DNA of 64,000 bases from Daucus carota subsp. sativus (taxonomy: Eukaryota; Streptophyta; Magnoliopsida; Apiales; Apiaceae): assembly GCF_001625215.2 (NCBI RefSeq), contig NC_030384.2:24726527-24790526 (forward strand), given 5' to 3'. The notes under the pieces are model-generated. The model saw only the letters and a list, made by a program, of their open reading frames with translations, was not told where the DNA came from and ran no database searches. A program made the position numbers and the translations under genes. Positions 16,221 to 52,289 of the stretch are shown piece by piece. Positions within the stretch are counted from its first letter, which is position 1. The number at the start of each line of letters is the position of its first letter.

Positions 16221-19200
16221 CAGTGCCGGCCCTGGACCGGTGCAACCAGTGCTCCAGCACTGGGCCCATTGGTCCAGGGGCCCAAAATTCTTTTAGGTCC
16301 AGTGTATGTGTTGCTATACTTCTACAGGCCTTTTTTTCCCCCTGATGCTACTCAACGCACTCAACGCAAAGGCCACGTACGTTACCTGCTCCTCTGCTCC
16401 ATTAAACGATCGGTCCAATTACATAATTAACTTCAAGTTTTAAGTTCTAATTCAGGACGTCAATTCTTAGAAAAACAAAGGTAATGACTTATTTCAATCT
16501 TTTAATTTAGTTGTTTATATATAATATATTATCCCAAAATTGTAGTAACTACTGGCTACTTGTTTATCTAATCTCTAATCTAATACTACTTATTTGTTTT
16601 ATATATATGATTTCTATGATCAGTACTTTGTCGAATAATTTTTTTTGCAATTTTTTTCAGTTTGGGATTGGGGACTTGATAGTTGTTATTGATTGGAGTT
16701 AAAGGATTCTGCCACTGCTTCACTACTTCAATACTTGTTCTCCCGTTTATTCAGGTTTCACTTCCTCACAAGTCATACATCTTCCCGATTGCTTGCTATT
16801 TTAGTGCATAAAATGTTTACTACAAAGTACCCATCTGGTAATGATAAAAGAAAAAGAAAGAAAGAGGAGGAGGAAGAAAAAATTAAACCATTAAAGGGAT
16901 CGCTTCAAAAACTTTGGAAGAAAACCAAACAGTCTGATGTGCCTATAGAAAAAGACGAGTCTGAAATTGTAGAGAAGGAGGTGTCTCAAGTTCAAAGTAC
17001 TTTTACACAAGAACATGAAGTAGTTGATGAAGAGTGTGCTAATGAAATAACTGAACAAGAAACCGAAGTGATTGAAAATGAGGTCATCGAAAATAGAGAA
17101 TACACTAATCCTAGTGAGTTTGTTCCTCTGTCTTGGAATATTTGTGATCCTCGGGTGTGGGATGGATTAGATAGTAATATGAGGGATTTGCTTGTTGAAA
17201 AGGGGCCTATTAAAGAAAATATTGTTATTTTTCCCAAGGATAAATGCAGTAGGGGGTTTTCAACGTATTATTATGATCAAAAATTAAGAAATGGAGAACT
17301 TGTTGATAGAAAATGGTTATTTTACTCAAAATAATTAAATAAAGTATTCTGCTTTTGTTGTAAAGTGATAAAAACTGCTCGATCTAAAAGCAATTTAGCA
17401 AGTGTGGGAGTAGATGACTGGGTACATTTAGGTGAGAAGCTGAAGCAACACGAAGATAGTCTTGAACATCTTACTAACCTGAAGGCATGGGCAGAACTCC
17501 AAGTTAGATTGAAAACAAATCAAACCATTGATAAAGAATTGCAAGAGCAAATTAAAAAAGATACTGAACACTGGAGGCATGTTATGATCAGAATAATTGC
17601 TGTTGTTAAACGCCTTGCAATGAATAATCTGGCATTTCGTGGGGAAAATGAAAAAATATTTGAAGATTCGAATGGTAATTTTTTGGGTTTTCTTGAGTCA
17701 ATAGCTGAGTTTGATCAAACAATGCAGCACCATTTCAGACTCATTCAAGACAAGGACATTCACTATCATTATCTTAGTCACAAAATACAAAATGATTTGA
17801 TATTAATGTTGGCTTCGAGTGTAAAGAGTGTGATTTTAAAGAAAATCAAGGAAGCTAAATATTTTTCAGTAATTCTTGATTGCACTCCTGATGCAAGCCG
17901 TATGGAACAAATGACTTTGGTGATTAGATGTGTTGATGTTGTGAGTTATCCTGTAAAAATTGAAGAGTATTTTTTAGAGTTCTTGAATGTGGAAAATACT
18001 TCTGGGTTGGGTCTGTTTGGTGAGTTAGAAATTGCTCTTAAATCTCTTGATTTAAATATCAATGATGTGAGGGGACAAGGGTACGATAATGGTTCTAATA
18101 TGAGGGGAAAACACCAAGGTGTTCAAAAAAGATTACTTGATGTTAATCCGAGAGCTTTTTATATGCCTTGTGGTTGTCATTCTCTTAATTTGGTACTATC
18201 TGATATGGCAAATTCTTGTGTGAAAGGTAAATCTTTTTTTGGAGCATGTCAAGCTTTATATAATGTGTTTGCTAATTCCACTAAGAGATGGAATCTATTG
18301 CTTGAATATGTGGATGACTTGACTTTAAAATCTTTATGTGTGACAAGATGGGAAAGTCGGATCGAAAGTGTTAAAACAATAAGAACTCAAGCTCCAAAAA
18401 TAAGAGACACATTAATGAAATTAGCTGAAGTTTCTGATGACCCAAAAATATGATGGGATGCTGAAAAATTAGCGTCAAATGAGTTTTCAAGTTTTGAATT
18501 TATATTGAGTTTGGTTATTTGGCATGATATTCTGCACAAAATTAATTTGGTGAGCAAAAATTTGCAATATGAAGATATGCGTCTTGATGTTGCTATTACA
18601 AATTTTAAAGGGCTGGTTTCTTTCTTTGAGAAATATCGAGAGAATGGGTTTACATCAGCTATGATTGATGCTAAAGAGCTTGCTAATGAAATGGATGTTG
18701 AACCTGTTTTTTTGATAAAGCGTAGGATTAAAAGAAATAAACAGTTTGATGAAAATCCTGACACCGAACGGGAACAACAATCTGCCTTGGAAAATTATAG
18801 ATTATTTTCTTGTACTAGTGGATATGGCACTTTCTCAACTGAAGGTAAGATTCGAACAAATGGAACTTTTTGAGTCTGTGTTTGGTTTTTTGTTTGATGC
18901 AGCGCGGTTGATTTCTTTGGATGATGAAGGACTAAAAACTTGTTGTCTGAAACTTGATAAGTCCTTAACTCATGGTGATGCTTGTGATATTGATGTGAAA
19001 CGGTTGCTTTCAGAATTACAAATTTTACAGGAGATGCTTCCAAGTGTAGCATATGAATGTGAAATACCATGGAATTCTCTTAAAGTTTTAGAATTTGTGA
19101 AGAAGATGGACATGTTTCCAAATATTTTAATGGCTTATAGGATTTTATTAACTATACCTATTACTGTGGCATCTGCAGAACGGAGCTTCTCAAAATTGAA

Positions 19201-19610
19201 GTTGATTAAGTCTTATTTACGGACAAGCATGACTCAAGATAGGTTGAATGGATTGGCAATTTTGAGTATTGAGAAAAATATACTCAAAAGTATTGATGTG
19301 GAGCATATAATCGATGATTTTGCTTCTAAAAATGCGAGAAGAGGACATTTCAAATGAGGATTGATGTGTTGCAGGTTTCCAATTCAGGATTTTATTAGGA
19401 TGAAAAAACATGATTTAAACATATGTAATTTTTGTTATTTATGATATACTCATGCCACTAGTTTTGTGTTTATATGATATCACCTGATTTAGTATATCTA
19501 ATTTCAAGTTGCTTGGAATTTTTCTTTTTATATTCATATTAGTAGTCTTGTATAAAAAGGCTCATAAAAAAATTTCGCACTAGGCCACCGAAATCTCAGG
19601 ACCGGCCCTG
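16221..19610 (+). mobile_element. hAT transposon, near full length
   Basis: The 3390 bp element has termini CAGTGCCGGCCCTGGACC and, reverse-complemented from the right, CAGGGCCGGTCCTGAG. It is flanked by a perfect 8 bp target duplication, TTTGTTTC, at 16213-16220 and 19611-19618. This is the hAT signature. It carries one transposase reading frame of the TTF-zinc-finger/DUF4371 type, now broken, so it is no longer autonomous. It sits inside the older minus-strand retroelement, which dates it as the younger insertion. Confidence 0.97.
16813..19357 (+). pseudogene. hAT transposase (TTF/DUF4371 type), inactivated
   Basis: This frame encoded a hAT transposase of roughly 850 residues, which cuts and pastes the element by binding its ends. 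The likely start is MFTTKYPSGNDKRKRK at 16813. In order there are a Lys/Glu-rich N-terminus, a TTF-type zinc-finger region (WNICDPRVWDGL to WLFYSK, then FCFCCK), a DUF4371/RNase H-like catalytic region (FSVILDCTPDASRMEQM; DVRGQGYDNGSNMRGKHQGVQ; MPCGCHSLNLVL), and a C-terminal hAT dimerisation domain (VASAERSFSKLKLIKSYLR). Three lesions are visible: an in-frame TAA at 17332-17334 inside the zinc-finger region, an in-frame TGA at 18451-18453, and a frameshift near 18800, after which reading continues in the next frame from about 18800 to 19357. Few lesions imply modest age. Confidence 0.93.
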
Positions 19611-24079: not shown

Positions 24080-24790
24080 CTCCCTCCGTCCCAATCAATT
24101 CTATACAATTTCCTTTTTGGGATGTCCCATCATTTCTATACATTCCCAAAATAGCAATTTTTTATAATATAAACCACTACTCCACCCACTACATTCTCTC
24201 ACTATCTCCATTCTATAAGAGTAAGTCCAATGCTAGATGCTATATATCTATTGCTATTGCTATAATATAGCACCAAAAAGTGTTTTTTGGTGCTAAAATA
24301 AAACTTGCACTCCAATGCTAAGTTCTATAACTTGTTTCAAATTTAACCAACTCATTAACTTTTACCTAACTTCTATATAGAACCAACTCTTTAACTTTTA
24401 CCTAACTCATTAACTCATTAACTAGTTTCCAATTTCAATTTATTGATGATGTGGCAACATGGATGGATCCATCCTTGGTTTCAAATATAGAACCAAGGAT
24501 GCATCTATGCATGGATGCATCCAAATATAGCACCCCTTTGGAGTTGAGTTTTTTTACTTTTGATGCTATAATATAGCAATAGAACCAAGTATAGCATTGC
24601 ATTGGAGTTGCTCTAATAATAAAAACACTATTACACCTACTACTTTCCTCCACTACCTCAAATCTATTATTAAAAAATATGTGGGTCTCACCACTTTACC
24701 CACTTTTCATCTAATTTTACTCATTTTTTACACTTTTTCTTGGTCTTCGTGTCCAATCCCAATGTATATAATTCATTGGGACGGAGGGAG
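24080..24790. mobile_element. Stowaway-like MITE split by a Tourist-like MITE
   Basis: Ends CTCCCTCCGTCCCAAT and ATTGGGACGGAGGGAG are perfect inverted repeats flanked by TA. The body matches the MITE at 28381-28690 (TATTACACC..CTACTTTC, CACTTTACCCACTTTTCATC) once the insertion at 24219-24613 is removed. This is a clear two-layer nest. Confidence 0.92.
24219..24613. mobile_element. Tourist-like (PIF/Harbinger) MITE
   Basis: A 395 bp element inserted in the preceding MITE. The left terminus is GAGTAAGTCCAATGCTAG. The right terminus, reverse-complemented, is GAGCAACTCCAATGCAATGC. The 3 bp target duplication TAA lies at 24216-24218 and 24614-24616. The interior has internal inverted-repeat structure (GCTATAATATAGCA on both sides). 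Confidence 0.9.
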
Positions 24791-27450: not shown

Positions 27451-28380
27451 TACTGTACAGAAAGATACAAGCCCGGTTAACGGACCAGCAAAACACAAGG
27501 GGATTATGATTATCACAAACCGAACCATATGTTCAAACCACGCCATTCATTTTTATTCTCAATTAAATGTTCATTTTCTGATATTCTTATTTATTAAATA
27601 ATAATAATTATTAAATTGAATTTTTTGAAAATCTACAAAGAAACCTAATAATTAAATTTATCATGTTTTCTAAAATGAATTATTGAAACTAAATGAGTAG
27701 AATCCTTTGTGATGATGCCTGAATGCTCTGCAGTTAACCAATACAACAAAAGAAATTATTTTTGGACCTGACTTTATTCATAAATTTTAAATCAATGATA
27801 TTCATTATTCAACTTTACTTCTACCACACTATACGGTTAATCAATCAGATAATATTAAATATTTTAGACGAATCAAGGGACACGCCTAAATTGTAGACCA
27901 ATAATATTTATTCTTCAACTTTATTTTTATTAAATTTTAAACAAGATATTAACCACATACAAGTTAATCATGAATTAACCAATATAATTTTTCATTTTAT
28001 AATATAATCATCGTCTCTTTTTGATTATCAAATTATAACTTATCTAAAGAGAATTCTTTTCATCATCTTATCAGACTCTTTCTAATTATCTAAATAAAAT
28101 TCATCTGATTAAACTCATTTTTATTATTAATTAAAATCCTTCTTATCATCTAATTACAACTGACCACATAGAAGAGATATCCAAACAAAGTGCAGCCATC
28201 CATGACAATACAAAACTCTATCCAAGATTACAATCATGTTCAAAATTTAAAATCAAACCGAATAATCAATTTAAAACAATTCTAACTAAACGCATACTAC
28301 ATCATATCAATAAAATCATTTTTAATAGATCCAACATTGTATAAACTTAAACATAATTAAATGAACCTGAGAAACAGATA
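27451..28380. other. AT-rich intergenic region
   Basis: No gene, bounded repeat or coding bias found. Mostly A/T sequence with diffuse similarity among its own TTATCATCTAATTA-type words. Confidence 0.5.
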
Positions 28381-28690
28381 CTCCCTCTGTCCCTCTCATT
28401 TCTTTACGGTTACTATTTTGGGATGTCCCTCTCATTTCTTTACGTTATTATAAATAGTAAGTTTTTCTCATTATTACACTCACTATTTTCCTCTACTATC
28501 TCATATTTAATAATAAAAACAACTATTACACCCACTACTTTCATTCATTATCTCAAATCTATTATTAAATATTGATAGGTCCCACACTTTACCCACTTTT
28601 CATCTAACTTTACTCATTTTTTATACATTGTCATGGTCTCCGTGTGACGTGTCCCCCTCCAATGTAAAGAATTGAGGGGGGCGGAGGGAG
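28381..28690. mobile_element. Stowaway-like MITE
   Basis: Starts CTCCCTCTGTCCCTCTCATT and ends GGGGGGCGGAGGGAG, flanked by TA. Its left part is partly duplicated: the phrase CCCTCTCATTTCTTTACG appears twice. The same family, in opposite orientation, is found at 42178-42481. Confidence 0.9.
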
Positions 28691-28820
28691 TACAAAATAT
28701 TTGAATATTTTTTAGAAAAGAAGTAAAAATCATAAAACAATATTCAAATATTATCATGTTCAAGTATTCAAAAAAAAACAAATCTACCGGCCTATCTATA
28801 ATGATTAATGATGTTGCAAA

Positions 28821-32493: not shown

Positions 32494-32755
32494 CAGGATG
32501 AAGAATATAACCTCCATGACCACATTAGTTGTATTAATCAGCTATTATGTCATCTGAATAATGTTGATGAGCCGATGAAATACGAGGAACAAGCTCTGTT
32601 GTTGTCGTCAATATAACCGAAGTCCAGGATGAAGAATATAACCTCCATGACCACATTAGTTGTATTAATCAGCTATTATGTCATCTGAATAATGTTGATG
32701 AGCCGATGAAATACGAGGAACAAGCTCTGTTGTTGTCGTCAATATAACCGAAGTC
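32494..32755. repeat. 131 bp perfect tandem duplication in gag
   Basis: Units 32494-32624 and 32625-32755 are identical by eye, starting CAGGATGAAGAATATAACC. The duplication is much younger than the surrounding decayed retroelement, or is an assembly artefact. Confidence 0.93.
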
Positions 32756-33616: not shown

Positions 33617-35260
33617 ATTTACACACATTAACAATCATTTTTTAGTTAAATGATGGATTTTTGGATATACAATTTATCAAGAATTCATCAAAAGAATTTT
33701 GATTAATTGTAAAATTTACCTGAATCAGAGTGTAATCAAAACATTTGTAAAATATTTTTTAAAGTTTTGTCCGTGAAGGTAGTTTTCACTTCCGTCAATT
33801 ATATAGTAAAATCACTACTATTAAGTTTTATTAAATAGCTTTTAAACATATACTTTTATATATAATCAAATTAAAAACAATGAATATTATTATAATATCA
33901 ACATCTAAATTTGTCTTAAAAACGAAAAAGTGAACAGTGCAGTGCCTGCAAAAAGAAATGGAGATAAAAATATGTTTATACTTTTAGCGGGCTCCTGAGC
34001 CTTGACAAAAAGACCACGCATGGCTGTGGACTTGTGGGTATGGGTCGTATTGTGTGACTTTAATAAATTATTCGTGATACAGAATTCAAACACAGGCAAA
34101 TTATTTGTCGAAATAATAAAAATCTTCCACGCACTTGTTTGATATTCGAATTCGTTGGTTACCTCTGCAGGCAAAAATACGGATGTATATTAGCCACGGA
34201 AACACCCTTGGAAAATATATATATATTCACAGTTTATTATAAATCATCAAATTTGCAAATCAATCATTAATCGAAAATGAATAATTTTTATAATCGTAAA
34301 ATGTGAACTTATAAAGAAAAATAGTCGCAGTAAGGACAGAACATAGTTTCAAAGATTCATCATGGGGAAATTGTGAACTAGTCGGCTGTAACTATAATTG
34401 ACTGTTAATTAGGATCGATTTGATAACTGATTTTAGTCAATAAAGTAGAAAAGATCAATGTAAAAATTCCTAATGTTCATGATTGTCGAATTTGAAGCAG
34501 AAACCACGTATCTTTGACAAAAGATAAATACTGTATTCTTTTATGCAGTCCCATGGCCAATTTTTAAGCGATACTTCGAAAGTCGTTAGCCATCCAGCAC
34601 CAGGACTCGTGATGTACTCTCTCTCTCGGTAAAGTAGTTTGGAGACGAGGGTTCATTAGTGCCGACGATCGTTTCGTATATTTTTATTTCGTGTATTTTT
34701 ATGTTTCAAGATAAAATTTATATTAGTACGTTGTTGATTTCGTTTACTTAATTTGAACTTGTAGCCGATCTAAAATATTTCGTATATTTTTCATGTACAT
34801 TTTTTGATATTATATATATAAATATTGATATAATTTTAATCAAAAATAATTTTAATATATATTTTCCTGTTAATTGTAATAAATATGTTCACGTACAATT
34901 CTCTACAAATTTGTTAATGTATCTATAATATATATATCTACATATCCATATAAATATATAATTTTTCATATAATTATATATTTGATATATTATAATATAT
35001 ATAATAAAAAATATGTACAAATATTTCGGGTACTTTCATGTATCCAAACTCAAAATCCATACTTAGCATGAAATCTATTTTGTAATTTGATATTCATGTA
35101 CTTTTGAGTTTCGTGTATTAAAAAACAAAATTCATATCATCTTTTTCACAATATTTCATTTCTTGTTAGCCTGTTGCGTATCAAATTGCCGACCCTGATC
35201 TCACCCGGGGCATAAAGCCCGGCTCGGCTCACTTATAGAGCCAAACCCACTCAGAATAAC
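33617..35260. other. AT-rich intergenic region, possible hAT-like remnant
   Basis: No gene is supported. Between about 34655 (TAGTGCCGACGATCG) and 35202 (AATTGCCGACCCTGA), weak inverted repeats and GTGTATTTT/TTCGTATATTT words resemble a degraded hAT-type MITE. No target duplication could be matched. Confidence 0.35.
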
Positions 35261-37253
35261 GGCTCCTTCAAATTTCTAACCACCCTAAACAACTTCTTTA
35301 CAAAACTAACCACCTTTTTTTTCACTTCACAAAACTGACCACCCTAATTCATTCACTCCTCGGGCGAACATAAAATTAAAGGGCTTTATATGTTCGCCCC
35401 TTCCTCGGGCGAACATCACAAAAAAATATATATATGTTCGCCCTTCCCTCGGGCGAACATACAAGGACTCTAAACTCCTCATACAAGGACCTGCACCACC
35501 TGCAGCTGTGTCGGAGTTTGAGTCTCCAAAGTTGTATATATGGCTGGTATTTTACAGTCTTGAGAATCTGTAGCCGCACCCTTCACTTGCAAAATTAATA
35601 TAAATGCATACAAAATTCTGAGGAACAACATTTTGTTGAGGGAGCACACATGCTTTTGCCATTTATATATTGTATCCACATCTATCAAAACCTTGTTTAA
35701 CCGGTGTTACAAAAATGGGGAATCGGACCAAATCGGTTGAGCTACCGATTCAGGGATTAATCGGAAATCGGGGATTAATCGAAAGGATTAATCGGTGTGA
35801 AAATCGGATTTATTTTAATATAAAAATATTATTTAATATTTAGTTATTATTATATTAGCTATTTAGTAACTAATATATTTGCTATATTCATAAACTTTAT
35901 AATTACTCATATTTAAAGTAATATGGTATTTTAATTCTAATAATTTATCACATATACTTCGATTAAGAAATATATATAAGGATTAATCGGATTTCAAAAA
36001 TCAGATCGGTGGCCAACCTTGCAGGGGATTAATCGGTGTGGAAAAATTTAATTTATAAATAATAAATTAAAATTTTCAATTAAATAAAATTTGAAAAAAA
36101 ATTCATTTTTTTTTTAAAATACTAGCTTATAGCCCGTGCAAGGCACGAGAGCTTTTTAATTATTTAGAAATTTTTTAAATATATTTTAAATGGTGTGGAA
36201 AAATTTAATTTATAAATAATAAATTAAAATTTTCAATTAAATAAAATTTGAAAAAAAATTTCAATTTTTTTTAAAATACTAGCTTATAGCCCGTGCAAGG
36301 CACGAGAGCTAAATTTTTTAAATTTTTAAAATATATTTAAAAAATTTCTAAATAATTAAAAAGCTCTCGTGCCTTGCACGGGCTATAAGCTAGTATTTTA
36401 AAAAAAATTGAATTTTTTTTCAAATTTTATTTAATTAAAAATTTTAATTTATTATTTATAAATTAAATTTTTCCACACCGATTAATCCCCTGCAAGGTTG
36501 GCCACCGATCCGATTTTTGAAATCCGATTAATCCTTATATATATTTCTTAATCGAAGTATATGTGATAAATTATTAGAATTAAAATACCATATTACTTTA
36601 AATATGAGTAATTATAAAGTTTATGAATATAGCAAATATATTAGTTACTAAATAGCTAATATAATAATAACTAAATATTAAATAATATTTTTATATTAAA
36701 ATAAATCCGATTTTCACACCGATTAATCCTTTCGATTAATCCCCGATTTCCGATTAATCCCTGAATCGGTAGCTCAACCGATTTGGTCCGATTCCCCATT
36801 TTTGTAACACCGGTTAAACAAGGTTTTGATAGATGTGGATACAATATATAAATGGCAAAAGCATGTGTGCTCCCTCAACAAAATGTTGTTCCTCAGAATT
36901 TTGTATGCATTTATATTAATTTTGCAAGTGAAGGGTGCGGCTACAGATTCTCAAGACTGTAAAATACCAGCCATATATACAACTTTGGAGACTCAAACTC
37001 CGACACAGCTGCAGGTGGTGCAGGTCCTTGTATGAGGAGTTTAGAGTCCTTGTATGTTCGCCCGAGGGAAGGGCGAACATATATATATTTTTTTGTGATG
37101 TTCGCCCGAGGAAGGGGCGAACATATAAAGCCCTTTAATTTTATGTTCGCCCGAGGAGTGAATGAATTAGGGTGGTCAGTTTTGTGAAGTGAAAAAAAGG
37201 GTGGTTAGTTTTGTAAAGAAGTTGTTTAGAGTGGTTAGAAATTTGAAGGAGCC
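35261..37253. mobile_element. Giant palindromic MULE-like foldback element
   Basis: This is a 1993 bp inverted repeat. The left arm (about 35261-36190) and right arm (about 36328-37253) are near identical over about 0.93 kb, separated by about 137 bp. Its ends are GGCTCCTTCAAATTTC and the complement. It is flanked by a perfect 9 bp duplication, CAGAATAAC, at 35252-35260 and 37254-37262, which suggests a Mutator-type transposase. Each arm carries three TTCGCCC/GGGCGAA palindromes near its end, a GGATTAATCGG-rich nested repeat, and a TATAGCCCGTGCAAGGCACG block. The same 67- and 69-codon frames appear on both strands for this reason. A transcript through it would fold into a nearly perfect hairpin. 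Confidence 0.93.
36191..36327. repeat. Palindrome spacer: third copy of an arm segment
   Basis: The spacer repeats, in direct orientation, the left-arm text from about 36033 to 36160 (GGTGTGGAAAAATTTAATTT to GCAAGGCACGAGAGCT), then diverges. This suggests the palindrome was built by a copying error rather than by simple end pairing. Confidence 0.8.
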
Positions 37254-37860
37254 CAGAATAACCTCCTCTGTTTCGCAATTTTATACCCATGATTTCTGTT
37301 TCTTGTAAATGATTGCGGCATGGAAAGAGAGTGGGAACAGGGGGTCCTCTGTCATGATTTAGAAAATAATTAGGTCTTCCTCCTGAGGTAATCCATTTGA
37401 ATATAAATCATACAGAAGGACTACTCCGCTGCTAATATATTCAAGTAGTCAACAGGTTCCCTCAGTCAAACTAGGATTTTTCACGCAGACACAAGAAACA
37501 AAATCCATGTTTCTCTCGCTCATAACCCCTTAAAATCAACAATCTATACATAAACATGGGAAGTAATGAACTTAAGTCAAACTTTCCACGATTTACGTAA
37601 ATACCCTCATGTTTTTCGAATACGATTAATGCCAAAATAGAAGTAAAGATATTAAAACGGGTACTCACTTCTTTCTTGTGAGATTAACTCGGGATTCTAG
37701 AAAAGGAGCATATAACTCATGATTCGCCGCTTTCGTTACTAAAACACTTTTTTCCAATGTTCTTGCTGATATTTAGATCTTGAAAATAATTTTTTTAATA
37801 GTTTAATCAATTTAGAAAATTGGATTGATATAATTAAAGTCTTAAATCTATTAAATTCTG
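37254..37860. other. Intergenic region
   Basis: No supported gene. One short minus-strand frame at 37471-37668 has no recognisable features. Confidence 0.45.
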
Positions 37861-39698: not shown

Positions 39699-40945
39699 AT
39701 GGAACTCGGCTTGAGCCTAGGAGATTCTTCTTCATCAAAAACATTTCTAGATGCAGCACAAAAAAATTCATCCAAGCCTCCTGATCTTGGCTTTCATATG
39801 GGCTTGACTCTCCACTCAAAATCTACTAGCGATGGTGATGATGAGGATGATTATGTAGATATTGATGATCGATCTTCTCAAGAAAATGTTAAAGATAAAT
39901 CATCAGCTCTTCATCTCCTTTCTCTCGCTCCCCTCCGCTTCGCAAATCAATCCGATAACGGTATTTATTTAATCTCGATTAATTAATAATTATTCGAGTG
40001 CACCGAAAAAAATTAAATATGTTGTTTTTGTGGTTTATGGTAATTGTTTATTATGTTAATATTTTTATTTTTTGTGGGGTTTGTGAAGGGAGTTCGGAGG
40101 GAGGTTCATCGGGAAACGTGAGGGTGGCTAGGGGGTTTGACGTCAACAGGATGGTGGCGGCTGAGGAGGCAACGTCGTCGTTTTGTATGGATTTAGCGAA
40201 ATACAGAGGTGGGAATAAGAGGAGCTTAGAGGATGGGAGAAACGACGGCGTAGAAGGGGAAAGAGGGTCGAACTCGAGAGCGAGTGATGATGATGAAAAT
40301 GGACTTGCTAGAAAGAAACTTAGGCTTTCTAAAGAACAGTCTGCTTTTCTTGAAGAGAGCTTTAAAGAACACAATACCCTTAATCCTGTAAGCAAGTGTG
40401 TGTTATTTAGGTGCATGTGACTTGTTTATGTTATGTTCTTATTGTTTAGTGTTCGATGAAGCAGAAACAAAAGCATGGCCTTGCCAAACAACTCAATCTT
40501 AGGCCTCGTCAAGTTGAGGTTTGGTTTCAGAATCGAAGGGCTAGGTGAGTCTCTCTTCCTCTCTCGGTTGATGGAAAAAAATGTTAAGATTTTTTTTTTG
40601 CTAATTGTATTTTGTGATTAATTTTGTAGGACAAAGTTGAAGCAAACGGAAGTAGATTGTGAGTACTTAAAGAAATGTTGTGAAACGCTAACAGAAGAAA
40701 ACAGGAAACTGCACAAAGAGCTTCAAGAGCTAAGAGCACTCAAATCATCAACTCCGTTTTACATGCAATCTCCGGCGACAACACTTACTATGTGCCCATC
40801 TTGTGAGCGTGTTGCCACCGCTACTCCGCCTTCAACCACCGCAGCTAAGACTGCAGGCACCACCTCCACAAGTACTCCTTCACCTTTTCCGCTATCAAGA
40901 TCCAAGTTTTTCCCGTTTTCTCATACACCCACAAAAGCCTCGTGA
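39699..40945 (+). CDS. HAT14: HD-Zip class II transcription factor, HAT14-like
   Basis: Four exons fit: 39699-39960, 40089-40387, 40465-40544 and 40630-40945, giving 318 residues. All junctions are GT-AG and keep the frame. The N-terminus MELGLSLGD holds an LxLxL EAR-type repression motif. The homeodomain spans about 162-218, with recognition helix WFQNRRAR at 207-214. The leucine zipper follows to about 254, and the class II redox motif CPSCE lies at 269-273. The zipper-to-CPSCE region ([39 protein letters not shown]) is closest to Arabidopsis HAT14. HD-Zip II proteins dimerise, bind CAATNATTG sites and mostly repress, often in shade and auxin responses. Exon 3 starts at AAACAAAAG (40465), because that restores the canonical LNPKQK. 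Confidence 0.95.
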
Positions 40946-41277: not shown

Positions 41278-42177
41278 ATAATCCTAATTCTCGTTACAAG
41301 CACAAATATATATATGTTAAATGTGTCATGGCTCGAATCAATTTCAATTTTGTGTTTAGTTATTCTCCTTTAAAAAATTTACACTACTAGGCATGACACT
41401 AAAAATGTCACTTTTGCGAAGTTGCAAGCTTCACTCAAAAATTAATGTTGGTGCTGTTATTACAGGATACCTTCCTTCTCTTTTGATCAACTATTTTGAT
41501 TATATTTTAACTGAAATTTAGATTTATTATATAATTGAAAAATTATAAAAGTTATATCATTAGAAAGTATTATTTCCCTATTTTAATATAAATTTTTGAA
41601 TTTTAAAAATAATAAATAAACAATTCATAATATTTAATGAAAATTTGATCAATTTTTTTTTTTGCAATACAAACTTATATATCTTACAAACTAAGTATCT
41701 GTTCTATAATAATTTTCGGGATGAGCCAAAGTCGAATCCAGATGTTCTGGGACAACGGAAGATAAACTTACTGGATCATTCAATCGTGCTAAAAAAATTG
41801 ATCAATTTAATTTGTCGAAAAATAAGATGAAAGTAAGGGATATGGAGTGATTCGATGATTTAGTAAAGCGAGAAAGTCGAGGCATGTCTGGGGTTGCTTT
41901 AAAGAACGGGGAGACTTTGGACTCTTTTCATAAGTATCTTTAATGATTTCATTCAAACAAACATTGATGAGAGGCGTGGGTTTTGTGTCTTCTTCATGTC
42001 TCGACGAAAAGTGTGACATTACATTAAGGGACAATATCATAGTGCTCTATATACCGTGGGCTCACATATCTGCTAAATATCATGGATATGGTTAATGTTT
42101 TAGTATTATGTTTATTGAATAATTAACGTGTAAAATATTATAATCATTTTAATTTTTATGACTACGAGTATTATTTA
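41278..42177. other. Intergenic region
   Basis: No gene supported. Two short overlapping frames on opposite strands at 41645-42040 show no domain. Confidence 0.45.
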
Positions 42178-42481
42178 CTCCTTCCGTCCCCCTCAATTGT
42201 TTACATTGGAGGGGGACACGGAGATCAAGACAATGTATAAAAAATGAGTAAAATTAGATGAAAAGTGGGTAAAGTGGTGGGACCTATCAATATTTTATAA
42301 TAGATTTGAGATAGTGGAGGAAAGTAGTGGGTGTAATAGTAGTTTTTATTGTTAAATATGAGATAATAAAGGAAGATAGTGGGTGTAATGATGGGAAAAA
42401 TTTACTATTTATAGTAACGTAAAGAAATGAGAGGGACATCCCAAAATAGTAACTGTAAAGAAATGAGAGGGACAGAGGGAG
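42178..42481. mobile_element. Stowaway-like MITE
   Basis: Starts CTCCTTCCGTCCCCCTCAAT, ends GAGAGGGACAGAGGGAG, flanked by TA. It is the same family as 28381-28690 in reverse orientation, with the doubled AAAGAAATGAGAGGGACA phrase at its right end. Confidence 0.92.
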
Positions 42482-43309
42482 TAATACATTTAGTGAATAA
42501 ATCTAATACATCTAGTGAATAAATTAGACTGTATTTATATTATAATTATCATTTATCAAGATAAAATATATTATTATACAAATAAAAATCAGAATTAATT
42601 TAGAATTTGTGGGAGGTTTTATGATAAATGGAATCATAGCTCCGAAAATAGCTCAGCATATTAGAGTATGATATCTGTGGTGGTGGTACACAAAGATACT
42701 GTTGTATTAATTGATGATGGATGAATTGTGTCTGTGAAAGTAGGTGCTGTTCTCGGACCACTAATTATGAGTACACACGAGCCAAGTACAAGACTCATTA
42801 TTGGATTGTGTTGGCACGTGACTTATCACGAGACTTCTTTCTTGGTGGTTGGCATATAGCGTGAATGCGTGATGTTGTGATAAACATGCTCGGGCGCTTC
42901 AAACGAATTCAATATTTTAATCAAATTTAGGGGAACTCGAGTGAGCTACATACAAACAAATTTTTGTCATATTTTGAAATTATTCTTAATCTAATTTTAA
43001 TTAATTATATAAATAATAACATAATCATCGGGATACAATTCAAATCCGTCATCTTATATAATTTATATATATACTTACTTTTAGACATGTAAAATAGAAA
43101 CTTTCACATATAAATTTCATAATTTTTTAATTTAGTTATGAATTTAAATTTTAAAGTTTTAGGTCAAATACAAATTATAAGATAAGTAGTTTATACAAAT
43201 AAATTTATTGAATATATAAAAGTCCATCAATATTATAAAGATGCCACATATCCCGAACGGAGGGTGTAATCTTTCTTGGATATTAAAAGTGTACATCAAA
43301 GAGGCTCCT
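42482..43309. other. Intergenic region
   Basis: No gene supported. CCCGAACGGAGGGTGTAA near 43253 may be the right end of a decayed Stowaway-type MITE. Confidence 0.4.
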
Positions 43310-49407: not shown

Positions 49408-52289
49408 TCAAATCTGATTGAGTTTGGTTGCCATTGTCACACGCGGCAGGCATCTTACTACCAAAGGCTGGAGCTTCGGCATGGTAAGTCCAGGCCCTTC
49501 AGTCATATCAACCAACTCTTTTCCGATCCTTTCCCAATCAAAGCACTGAAGGAGTGACCCCAAAACTAACCCCATCATCCGCATTGCCAGACCTTCCCCT
49601 GGACAGGCTCTTCTTCCCGAGCCAAACGGTAAAAACTTGTACCCGTCTCTGGTCCCTTCAAGGCCTTCAAACCTTTCTGGCATGAACCTTCTTGGTTCTG
49701 CCCATAGTTTTGAGTCATTTTGAATTGCCCACACGTTTACAATCAGCATGGTGCCTTTGGGGATGACGAAACCTCCTACCTTGCAGTCCACGGATGATTC
49801 GTGAGGCAGCAGTAGAGGGCCAGCAGGGTACATCCTCATTGTCTCGGCTATGATGCAACGGAGGTAAGGCAGGTTTGATATATCTGATTCATTAATGAGA
49901 CGGTCTTGTCCCACATGATTGTCGATCTCTATCTGTGCCTTCTTTAGAGCATCTGGATTGTTTACCAGGAGAGACAAAGCCCACTCCATGGTTACAACTG
50001 TCGTATCAGTTCCTGCTCCTAGTAGAACCTATTGTAAAAGGAAGCATTCAAACAGAGCGGCTCAAATGGTTGTCCCAAAATCAATTTGCTTACACAATCA
50101 GTTTGCGAGGATAGAAATTTATGATGTATCATCATCTGTAATTAGTTTAAATCAAGGGCATCCATCACATGAACTACGAATTTGTGGAGTGAACTAGCAG
50201 CGGTTAAGGCACTTAAAAATGATATTATTACTAATATACAGATAAATTTCATCAAAAGTTCTGTTGCAGTGTGAAATTTTTTTGACGAAGTAAGATGTTG
50301 AGGGATGCTCTATTCAACTGGGTGTAGTAGCAGGTATATATAAGGTGAACTCCACTTTCTTTCAGGAAGGATTATCTATCGTCCAGTTATTAAATTCTCT
50401 TCATTCTGTTCAGGATTTGTGTATTTCTCGAGTGCATTATTATATAATTTACTTTCCCACTCCCTGGATCATGAATCCCATAATTTGTTTTAACTAGTGA
50501 TCTGCAGATGAAGTTTGATTTCAGGCAACTTAATCTGCATGCAAAATGAAACTAGAACTGTTGTCATCATTACTTCAGTAGTTATCACTCATCACGCTCT
50601 TCATTTACTCAACCAAGAGGAGAGTTGTATATGAGCCGAACTGTTTGCGGAAAAAGTCGACTCAACTCGAATTATTCGCGAACAACTGAAACTCGACTCG
50701 GTTCTTAACAGACTCGAATTTGAGCAGCAAAAAGTCTTTGTTGAACTTAACAACCAAACCTGACTCGTTAAGCAAAACTCGTACTTGGACTCGATAAGTA
50801 AAAACTCGACTCGACTCAGTTCGTTTACGGCCTAAGTCCAAGATCCTTGAAGAGTGGATTCTAAATCTTTATATGTTTGTATTTCCTTATTTCGGATGTG
50901 AAGTACATGATGCTTCAACAAATAGAAATAGTACTCCTCCATGCATTCAGTCTCAGATGTAATTTTGAATATATTATTATTCAGTTGTCAGTTGGTGTTT
51001 TCTTTAACTAAATGTCAACTCCTCCTTAAGAAAGCTTTTATGAGGAACTATGTGAGGAAGCAGCATCATAGAAGAACCTCCATAGTACATATGTGATTCC
51101 GTAAAAGATAAAAGCACATGCATCAAACTAATAGAGTCTTGCTTAGATTAAATCATGTCCGAATGATGTAATATTTTCCGATCCCATCAAATGTTAAATT
51201 TTCGATACTACTCATTCCTATCAACATAAAATTCACCACAATCTGCAAATCCACAAGTAGTTCTGGCAAATATTGTAAATCACTGATAAAGTATTGATCA
51301 TTTTTGTTTGATAAGAAGAGGATACTAAAAAGGCTTACCAGTATTAAACCTCTGATAATCTCATCACTGTAGTATTCAGGTTGAGTTTGTTGCAGAGACA
51401 ACAACAGTTCGATCATGCTCTTCCTTCCCGTTCCCGATTCCGCCGTATCATCCCCATTCCCATCTTCCATATGTCGTCTATGTTGATCAATCAATTCTTG
51501 AACAAACTCATCTCTCTTCTTCCTCAACGCAATCATTTTCTTTTCTATCCCTCTTTTTTCAACCAACTTCATCAGGGGCAAAAAATCCCCTAAATTCGAA
51601 GCGCCACCAATAACAAACGACTCAGTTATAATCTCCTTAAACCGCTTCGCCTCGGCCTCATCCGCCACATCATCCTCCCCGTAATATCTCTTCCCCGCGA
51701 TCATTCTCATAAGCACATTTAACGTCATCTCGAAAAAAGTCAATTTCATATCGACAATATTCTCTTTCGAGCTTCGAGGAGTTCCAGAACTTCTGGAAGC
51801 TCGAAAGAGGCGATCTAGCAGTATTCGAGTCTCCTCAACTCGAATAACCTGACTAGATCGCAGCCGATGGGCTGAAAACACTTCCACAGTGACCATGCGA
51901 CGGAGATTACGCCAGTGATCTCCGTACGAGGCCCAGTGAAGGGCAGTGTAATTGTAGCCAAGATGTTTTCCAGCTAGCAAATGTGGACGGTCTGCGAAAA
52001 CTACGTCATTTTTGCTTAAGCATTCTTCAGCGGCAGAGGGGGACGAGACGAGAAGGACGCGGCGGGAGCCGAAGTTAAGGAGGAGTAGAGGGCCGCTTTT
52101 GGCTGAGATTTTGGAGAGTGTCCGGTGAAGTGGTTTCTTAAGAAGATATAGGTGACCAAGAAACGGGAGATTTAAGAAGGGAGTGGGAGGGTGGTTCCGG
52201 ATTTTGTTAAGGAAGTGTTTAGTGAACATGTATAAGATTGGAAACGATATGAATGTGTATAAGATGGTGGATACAAGTGTGAGCTCCAT
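49408..52289 (-). CDS. Cytochrome P450, CYP81 family-like
   Basis: Two exons: 51339-52289 and 49408-50028, with one phase-0 GT-AG intron of 1310 bp at the position usual for CYP81 and related A-type P450s. The product is 523 residues. An N-terminal membrane anchor (about 1-23) is followed by the proline-rich hinge (PPTPFLNLPFLGH). The I-helix motif AGTDTT lies at 322-327, ExxR (ETMR) at 379-382, PERF at 434-437, and the haem loop PFGSGRRACPG has the ligand Cys at about 459. All key residues are present. CYP81 enzymes are ER-bound monooxygenases acting on isoflavonoids, lignans, indole glucosinolates or xenobiotics; the substrate here cannot be told. The start at 52289 (MELTLVS) is chosen over an upstream in-frame codon, because it matches family N-termini and lies just after a TATA-like site. 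Confidence 0.95.
50622..50834. repeat. hAT-type MITE relic in the P450 intron
   Basis: Bounded by TTGTATATGAGCCGAACTG and CAGTTCGTTTACGGCCTAA, with many ACTCGACTCG/CGAGTC words between. This is the general pattern of plant hAT MITEs that end TAGGGCTGTAAACGAGC. No target duplication could be matched. Confidence 0.5.

Follow-up and report, generated by a model that had tools for sequence, protein, structure and literature searches.

A palindromic element of 1,993 bp is located at positions 35261-37253 of a 64-kb stretch of the Daucus carota subsp. sativus genome (hereafter referred to as the window). The nearest gene that was found, at 39699-40942 on the plus strand, encodes an HD-Zip protein with homeodomain and HALZ domains and a likely ATG at 39699, and is presumably, judging from its motif, a class II member. 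This gene is situated 2.4 kb to the right of the element and is transcribed in the direction away from it, and the insertion of the element may affect its upstream region. The window furthermore contains a P450 gene on the minus strand (49411-52289), the two exons of which are identical to the carrot protein DCAR_0415013 over all of its 523 residues, as well as plus-strand frames for a hAT-type transposase with DUF4371 and hAT dimerisation domains (16693-19357), which are split over several ORFs by stops or introns. An Rfam search of the window at gathering scores returned no match, a tRNA scan was empty, and the same holds for a viral_contigs pattern search and a plasmid search.

Self-comparison of its arms, tips and flanking duplication shows that the coordinates 35261 to 37253, previously proposed for the palindrome in a first-pass annotation, are exact, and that the near-identical arms of approximately 0.93 kb and the 9-bp flanking duplication described there are indeed present. 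The element, with tips GGCTCC and GGAGCC, is composed of a left arm of 930 bp (35261-36190, plus strand) and a right arm of 929 bp (36325-37253, minus strand), which are 99.36% identical over 930 columns in an alignment with one gap. If the arms are compared without gaps (35261-36118 versus 36396-37253), six differences are found in 858 nucleotides; the annotation had placed such differences near the tips, but just two occur within 55 bp of a tip, while four fall within 116 bp of the inner end of the 858-bp arm. The central loop of 134 bp (36191-36324) is not a simple spacer, but contains an extra direct copy of an inner unit of the left arm. Inverted repeats thus make up most of the element (1,859 of 1,993 bp, or ~93%), as in foldback elements. 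On either side, the element is bordered by a perfect direct repeat of 9 bp, CAGAATAAC, at 35252-35260 and 37254-37262 (both plus strand); in 200,000 draws of paired random 9-mers from the window, three pairs were identical.

Each arm consists of a terminal inverted repeat (TIR) of ~205 bp, a piece of a GDSL esterase gene, a truncated non-autonomous hAT element (MITE) and AT-rich units, and the presence of the GDSL piece and the MITE rules out that the arms are purely of MULE content. The TIR is located at 35261-35465 (plus strand) and, as its mirror, at 37049-37253 (minus strand), with relatives of 78-87% identity elsewhere in the genome. The MITE segment of 333 bp, found at 35704-36037 (plus strand) and in mirror orientation at 36477-36810 (minus strand), has at least 34 other matches in the genome at 93-95%, and its inner end is absent from both arms. 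Inspection by eye of six fetched copies of this MITE revealed the CAGTGTT/AACACTG ends and the 8-bp duplication of a hAT element in three (L016, L017 and L018), while these were not clean in the remaining three (L014, L015 and L019). The AT-rich inner unit carries a hairpin followed by CTAG and then T, and matches to this pattern, which was derived from the element itself, number three in the window where 0.03 exact matches were expected, i.e., at 36121-36146 (minus strand), at 36278-36303 within the loop (minus strand) and at 36369-36394 (plus strand). A Helitron 3' end is formed by a hairpin followed by CTRR and is inserted before a T, and the present motif may resemble such an end. No MULE or other transposase domain was detected in the element in a search of six frames at E 0.001.

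The captured GDSL esterase fragment is located at 36813-37006 in the right arm (plus strand) and, as its mirror copy, at 35508-35701 in the left arm (minus strand), both pointing outward. It includes a captured promoter with the motif TATATAAA, assigned as a TATA box by consensus only, at 36845-36852 (plus strand), with its mirror at 35662-35669. In a large protein search (49 candidates), a composite peptide of 47 residues matched a carrot GDSL esterase (P0002) with an E value of 2.4e-15, and the other eight of the nine reported matches were weak (E 0.04 to 1.3) and all possess a GDSL domain; neither the short GDSL frames nor the composite yielded anything useful in Pfam and PDB searches. A tblastn search of the window with P0002 located residues 1-48 in three frames of the left arm, while in the right arm two of the three frames were returned with P0002 and the third with P0003, and the piece must therefore be a broken fragment.

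When this piece was compared to the genome, 14 matches were obtained, all 14 candidates being scored, of which twelve correspond to arms of the palindrome and its copies described below. The remaining two, at C6:24302522-24302716 (93%) and C6:24299692-24299861 (83%), are 3 kb apart. The former locus is a GDSL gene, at which residues 1-86 of P0002 are encoded at 96.5% and residues 85-131 at 100% identity, and it represents the parent of the captured piece, with 93.4% identity over 197 columns. The captured piece extends from 73 bases before the ATG of MLFLRIL, and thus includes TATATAAA, to approximately 120 coding bases; the P0002 protein record begins seven codons upstream of the MLFLRIL start. 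No match to the MITE was found in the 1.1-kb stretch of the parent. As is the case for Pack-MULEs, the TIRs and target-site duplication therefore enclose a host gene fragment with a parent elsewhere in the genome.

A search of the carrot genome with the left arm returned at least 62 matches (40 scored of 1,729 candidates, so that all counts are lower bounds), and these include at least six palindromes that share their tips and are each flanked by a perfect duplication of 9 or 10 bp. Apart from the window copy, on C4, these are L009 (C4:15645518-15647348), L010 (C6:34698971-34701051), L011 (C6:34449406-34451486), L012 (C6:30457237-30459797) and L013 (C9:2316310-2318099), the last of which has one arm of just 417 bp. 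Their lengths vary from 1,790 to 2,561 bp due to differing centres. L010 and L011 are identical in inverted orientation over 1,062 + 2,084 + 1,055 compared bases, thus including ~1 kb of flank on each side, and were therefore counted as one insertion, which leaves at least five independent insertions. The duplications of these five, i.e., CAGAATAAC in the window and GATCTATACC, GAGTTGTGC, GATGTGTATA and TCTGAAAGC at the other loci, are all 9 or 10 bp long without a mismatch, within the range of 9-11 bp for MULEs.

Near-identical arms are a known assembly hazard, and L010 and L011 form an exact inverted duplicate at a distance of 250 kb; nevertheless, the notion that the palindrome is the product of a fold-over in assembly or library was rejected, and is given a negligible probability, because the 9-10-bp end repeats are direct rather than inverted, because the arms differ from each other and the loops are asymmetric, and because there are five independent insertions with different duplications. 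As for the C6 region itself (34449406-34701051), in which the palindrome forms part of an exact inverted duplication with copies 250 kb apart, two MULE-transposase matches at 34472339 (plus strand) and 34677834 (minus strand) are mirror images of each other at equal distance. This suggests that the duplicated arms on C6 extend for at least 23 kb, as either a large chromosomal palindrome or an assembly duplicate. With respect to the gene context of the copies, no Pfam match at E 0.01 was obtained for ten frames, comprising seven ORFs flanking other copies, two ORFs of L070 (see below) and the first ORF of the HD-Zip gene.

The TIR alone returned at least 48 matches in the genome (40 scored of 194 candidates), twelve of which are the tips of the six palindromes. 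Among twelve further family loci that were selected, seven possess both tips and an exact duplication (9 bp in six cases and 10 bp in one), and for the other five no tip pair with a duplication was found within the stretch fetched. The inverted arms of the seven vary considerably: L070 has arms of 1,900 bp in a total of 4,025 bp (99.6%), L073 is an inverted repeat over its whole 664 bp (94.8%), and the arms comprise 323 of 1,174 bp in L071, 202 of 1,290 bp in L072, 195 of 1,668 bp (78%) in L081, and 90 bp each in L076 and L078. Inverted repeats of at least 100 bp and at least 80% identity, the definition of long TIRs in PMC3310237, are thus present in the six palindromes and in four of these seven members. 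These arm lengths indicate that a single TIR family includes ordinary MULE-like members and at least one additional long palindrome, which carries different cargo.

This second palindrome, L070:525-4549 (G000:C7:33794224-33798248), is 4,025 bp long and is flanked by the duplication GCAATATGA. For the interior of its arm, matches of 0.9-1.2 kb at 89-99% were obtained at 22 further places, and at seven of these a TIR match in the same orientation is found 7.5-25 kb away. The seven intervals were taken as putative large members of the family, one of which was measured from tip to tip. The large member at C3:1119614-1132129 (12.5 kb) carries the hairpin-CTAG unit just inside its right tip, and its tips are without a matching duplication. 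The MULE domain is absent from L070 and from the first 4.9 kb of this large member, and none of the PF10551 matches listed (150 scored of 813 candidates) falls inside the seven intervals; the transposase search in family members yielded one sub-threshold match, to PCO_ADO. These searches thus linked no transposase to the TIR family.

The copy on C9, L013, has one shortened arm. This 417-bp arm continues into a non-palindromic stretch of 213 bp that has matches at 16 other places; 13 of these matches extend over its full length at 99-100%, and all 13 are located within 3 kb of a match to the L070 arm. The stretch testifies to recent template switching or conversion inside the TIR family, and L013 as a whole looks like a frozen template-switch product; such exchange hints at a way in which palindromes can form.

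An alignment of the twelve arms of the six copies was used to compare the arms of independent insertions. At column 24, the arms differ as C/T in both the window copy and L010; a variant that distinguishes the arms at column 53 recurs in L010 and L012; and at column 55 the arms differ as T/C in the window copy, in L010 and, in flipped orientation, in L012, while L009 has T/T and L013 has C/C. Such a recurrence of arm-specific variants would be the outcome if a single palindrome, its two arms differing slightly, had been copied to several loci, and the palindrome most likely arose once and then moved as a unit. It should be borne in mind that the shared variants represent three sites, two of which are situated 2 bp apart and one of which borders a T-run. 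The first-pass annotation had proposed MULE-type transposition of the palindrome as a unit, which is supported by the five insertions with 9-10-bp duplications and the three recurring variants; the arms themselves are not mainly of MULE sequence.

A different order of events would be that an ordinary single-copy MULE inserted at each site and that, once excision had occurred, aberrant gap repair turned every copy into a palindrome at its own site, in which case the duplication would be uninformative with regard to movement of the palindrome. Exchange inside the family does occur, as exemplified by the 213-bp stretch of L013 that is otherwise found beside markers of the large members, and L070 represents a second long palindrome with other cargo. 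However, five loci would then have had to form an identical palindrome with the same two arm versions, while columns 24, 53 and 55 recur between loci, and no single-arm carrier exists among the matches to the GDSL piece, which was found solely in the twelve arms and at the two C6 places. Origin in place is hence deemed improbable, and separate formation of the palindrome at each site was rejected on the shared arm variants, i.e., on three sites.

Further variants bear on how the arms have remained alike. Both arms of L010 contain a 4-bp TATA insertion that is absent from every other independent copy, which points to putative arm-to-arm conversion, although a parallel origin is possible because the insertion site is a TA run. 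In one arm of L012, private differences are clustered at columns 33-188 (11 mismatches in 405 sites relative to the left arm of the window copy and 13 relative to the right), a pattern that looks like conversion from a more distant TIR. Between columns 190 and 800, and excluding two short arms, the inner arms exhibit 0-4 differences per ~605 sites and 0-6 gap columns, and the spread thus looks recent.

Taken from the structure, the duplications, the captured piece and its parent, the shared arm variants and the other copies, all of which are read directly from the sequence, the element is very probably a non-autonomous, almost fully palindromic foldback-type Pack-MULE of a carrot Mutator-like TIR family that was moved as a unit in trans. 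For the order of events, we infer that a TIR-bearing ancestor would have acquired the core promoter and the first ~120 coding bases of the GDSL gene as well as a hAT MITE, while the arms also contain AT-rich units of the kind found close to one end of a large family member. An inverted copy of one end would then have been made, for which a template switch in the course of gap repair is the most likely cause, so as to yield the palindrome. The palindrome would subsequently have been mobilised as a unit at least five times, with the formation of 9-10-bp duplications, by a transposase presumed to be supplied in trans. The likeness of the arms would have been kept by recent spread plus, probably, conversion from arm to arm by a mechanism of this kind.

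If a transcript were to cross the element, it would form a hairpin of ~0.9 kb, and a predicted fold of the full-length transcript has an energy of -1614.9 kcal/mol with 97% of its bases paired. The captured promoters point outward and would therefore produce no hairpin by themselves, so that read-through from outside is needed; transcripts started outward at the captured TATA boxes would not pair with one another. Any siRNAs made from such a hairpin would match the 5' end of the GDSL gene and the family TIRs. Arm and parent share three identical runs, one upstream of the ATG (43 bp), one across it (25 bp) and one in the coding part (47 bp), and all five independent copies contain the same 55 exact 21-mers from the parent stretch; siRNAs, if made, could consequently match the GDSL gene. 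Since the arms include the GDSL piece besides the TIR, the most specific RNA targets predicted are the TIR family and the host GDSL gene, whereas the target of Mu killer is a transposase gene. From its sequence, the palindrome is accordingly a natural candidate for a role in hairpin-mediated silencing, and two readings of such a role were considered.

The element might be a silencer of the Mu killer type, i.e., a MULE that was rearranged, silences its own family by way of a hairpin RNA and is retained for that reason. It is indeed an inverted duplication with a long near-perfect stem, and L070, the arms of which share ~1 kb with 22 other places, some of them near family TIR matches, comes closer in design to Mu killer than the element in the window does. 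The latter, however, shows no transposase domain and carries arms of TIR, GDSL piece, MITE and AT-rich units, and the existence of five similar copies speaks for mobility and not for its being kept as a silencer, which makes this reading rather unlikely. The other reading, to which we attach a similarly low likelihood, is that of a mobile, self-made RNAi construct: the family would capture a host promoter and gene start, convert these into a near-perfect inverted repeat and disperse it, insertions near active promoters would become hairpin loci that silence the parent, and arm conversion would maintain the stem. If true, this would constitute a transposon route to the birth of siRNA or MIRNA loci by inverted duplication.

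Several features of the foldback-type Pack-MULE proposed here are shared with known systems. Like Pack-MULEs such as PM-ZIBP of tomato, as described in PMC3310237, it has a TIR pair, a 9-11-bp duplication and a captured host-gene piece whose parent can be identified; the same source states that acquired sequence can join extended TIRs, and the principle of captured sequence within TIRs is therefore already known. Unlike PM-ZIBP as described there, the carrot element has the captured piece in both arms and is ~93% inverted repeat with hardly any interior. Long modular foldback TIRs and a 9-bp duplication are likewise found in the available accounts of MuTAnT, of FARE as cited therein (PMC4486113), and of Tm1 (PMC3169594). 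Short non-autonomous members are reported there for MuTAnT and Tm1 (PMC4486113 and PMC3169594), and a histone-hairpin motif was possibly acquired by Tm1 (PMC3169594). The carrot arms differ from those of MuTAnT, FARE and Tm1, as described in these accounts, in that they carry a host promoter and gene start, with ~0.9 kb of mixed cargo that is 99.4% alike between arms.

With Mu killer of maize (PMC3440606), the element shares the doubling of one MULE end in inverted orientation and a possible hairpin RNA. Mu killer contains a duplicated mudrA transposase gene and silences in trans, whereas the carrot element shows no transposase domain and is represented by at least five independent insertions. 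PMC3440606 reports antisense transcripts, of short length, from plants with silencing, and sense transcripts with read-through from plants without it, and thereby disputes the read-through hairpin model even for Mu killer. The element furthermore resembles the inverted-duplication model of MIRNA gene birth, as summarised in PMC10004981, in being an inverted copy of a gene part, with or without promoter, that could give rise to siRNAs against the founder; unlike in that summary, the carrot inverted copy is carried and dispersed by a transposon. A MITE library for carrot is presented in PMC8227079.

No description of a palindromic Pack-MULE or of the present carrot TIR family was found in the titles and abstract starts of the open-licence literature listed, which is a limited scope. 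As far as searched, a dispersed near-complete palindrome whose two arms both contain the promoter and start of a host gene is new, and is here presented for carrot. Known Pack-MULEs and foldback MULEs are thereby joined by a dispersed palindrome that has one and the same gene start in each of its arms. As the family comprises ordinary, half-palindromic and fully palindromic members and the in-between L013, it bears on how long near-perfect inverted repeats arise in plant MULEs, and also on whether a host gene can come under the control of small RNAs through capture by a transposon; the predicted target, the siRNA windows and the insertion sites are all named, and the host is a crop plant.

The window contains additional repeats apart from the palindrome. 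A perfect direct tandem duplication of 131 bp is located at 32494-32755, and an inverted dispersed repeat of ~320 bp (90%) is formed by 28379-28699 and 42169-42483, with weaker relatives at 24614, 30447 and 43916. An exact self-complementary stretch of ~82 bp, probably a simple repeat, is present at 2011-2093.
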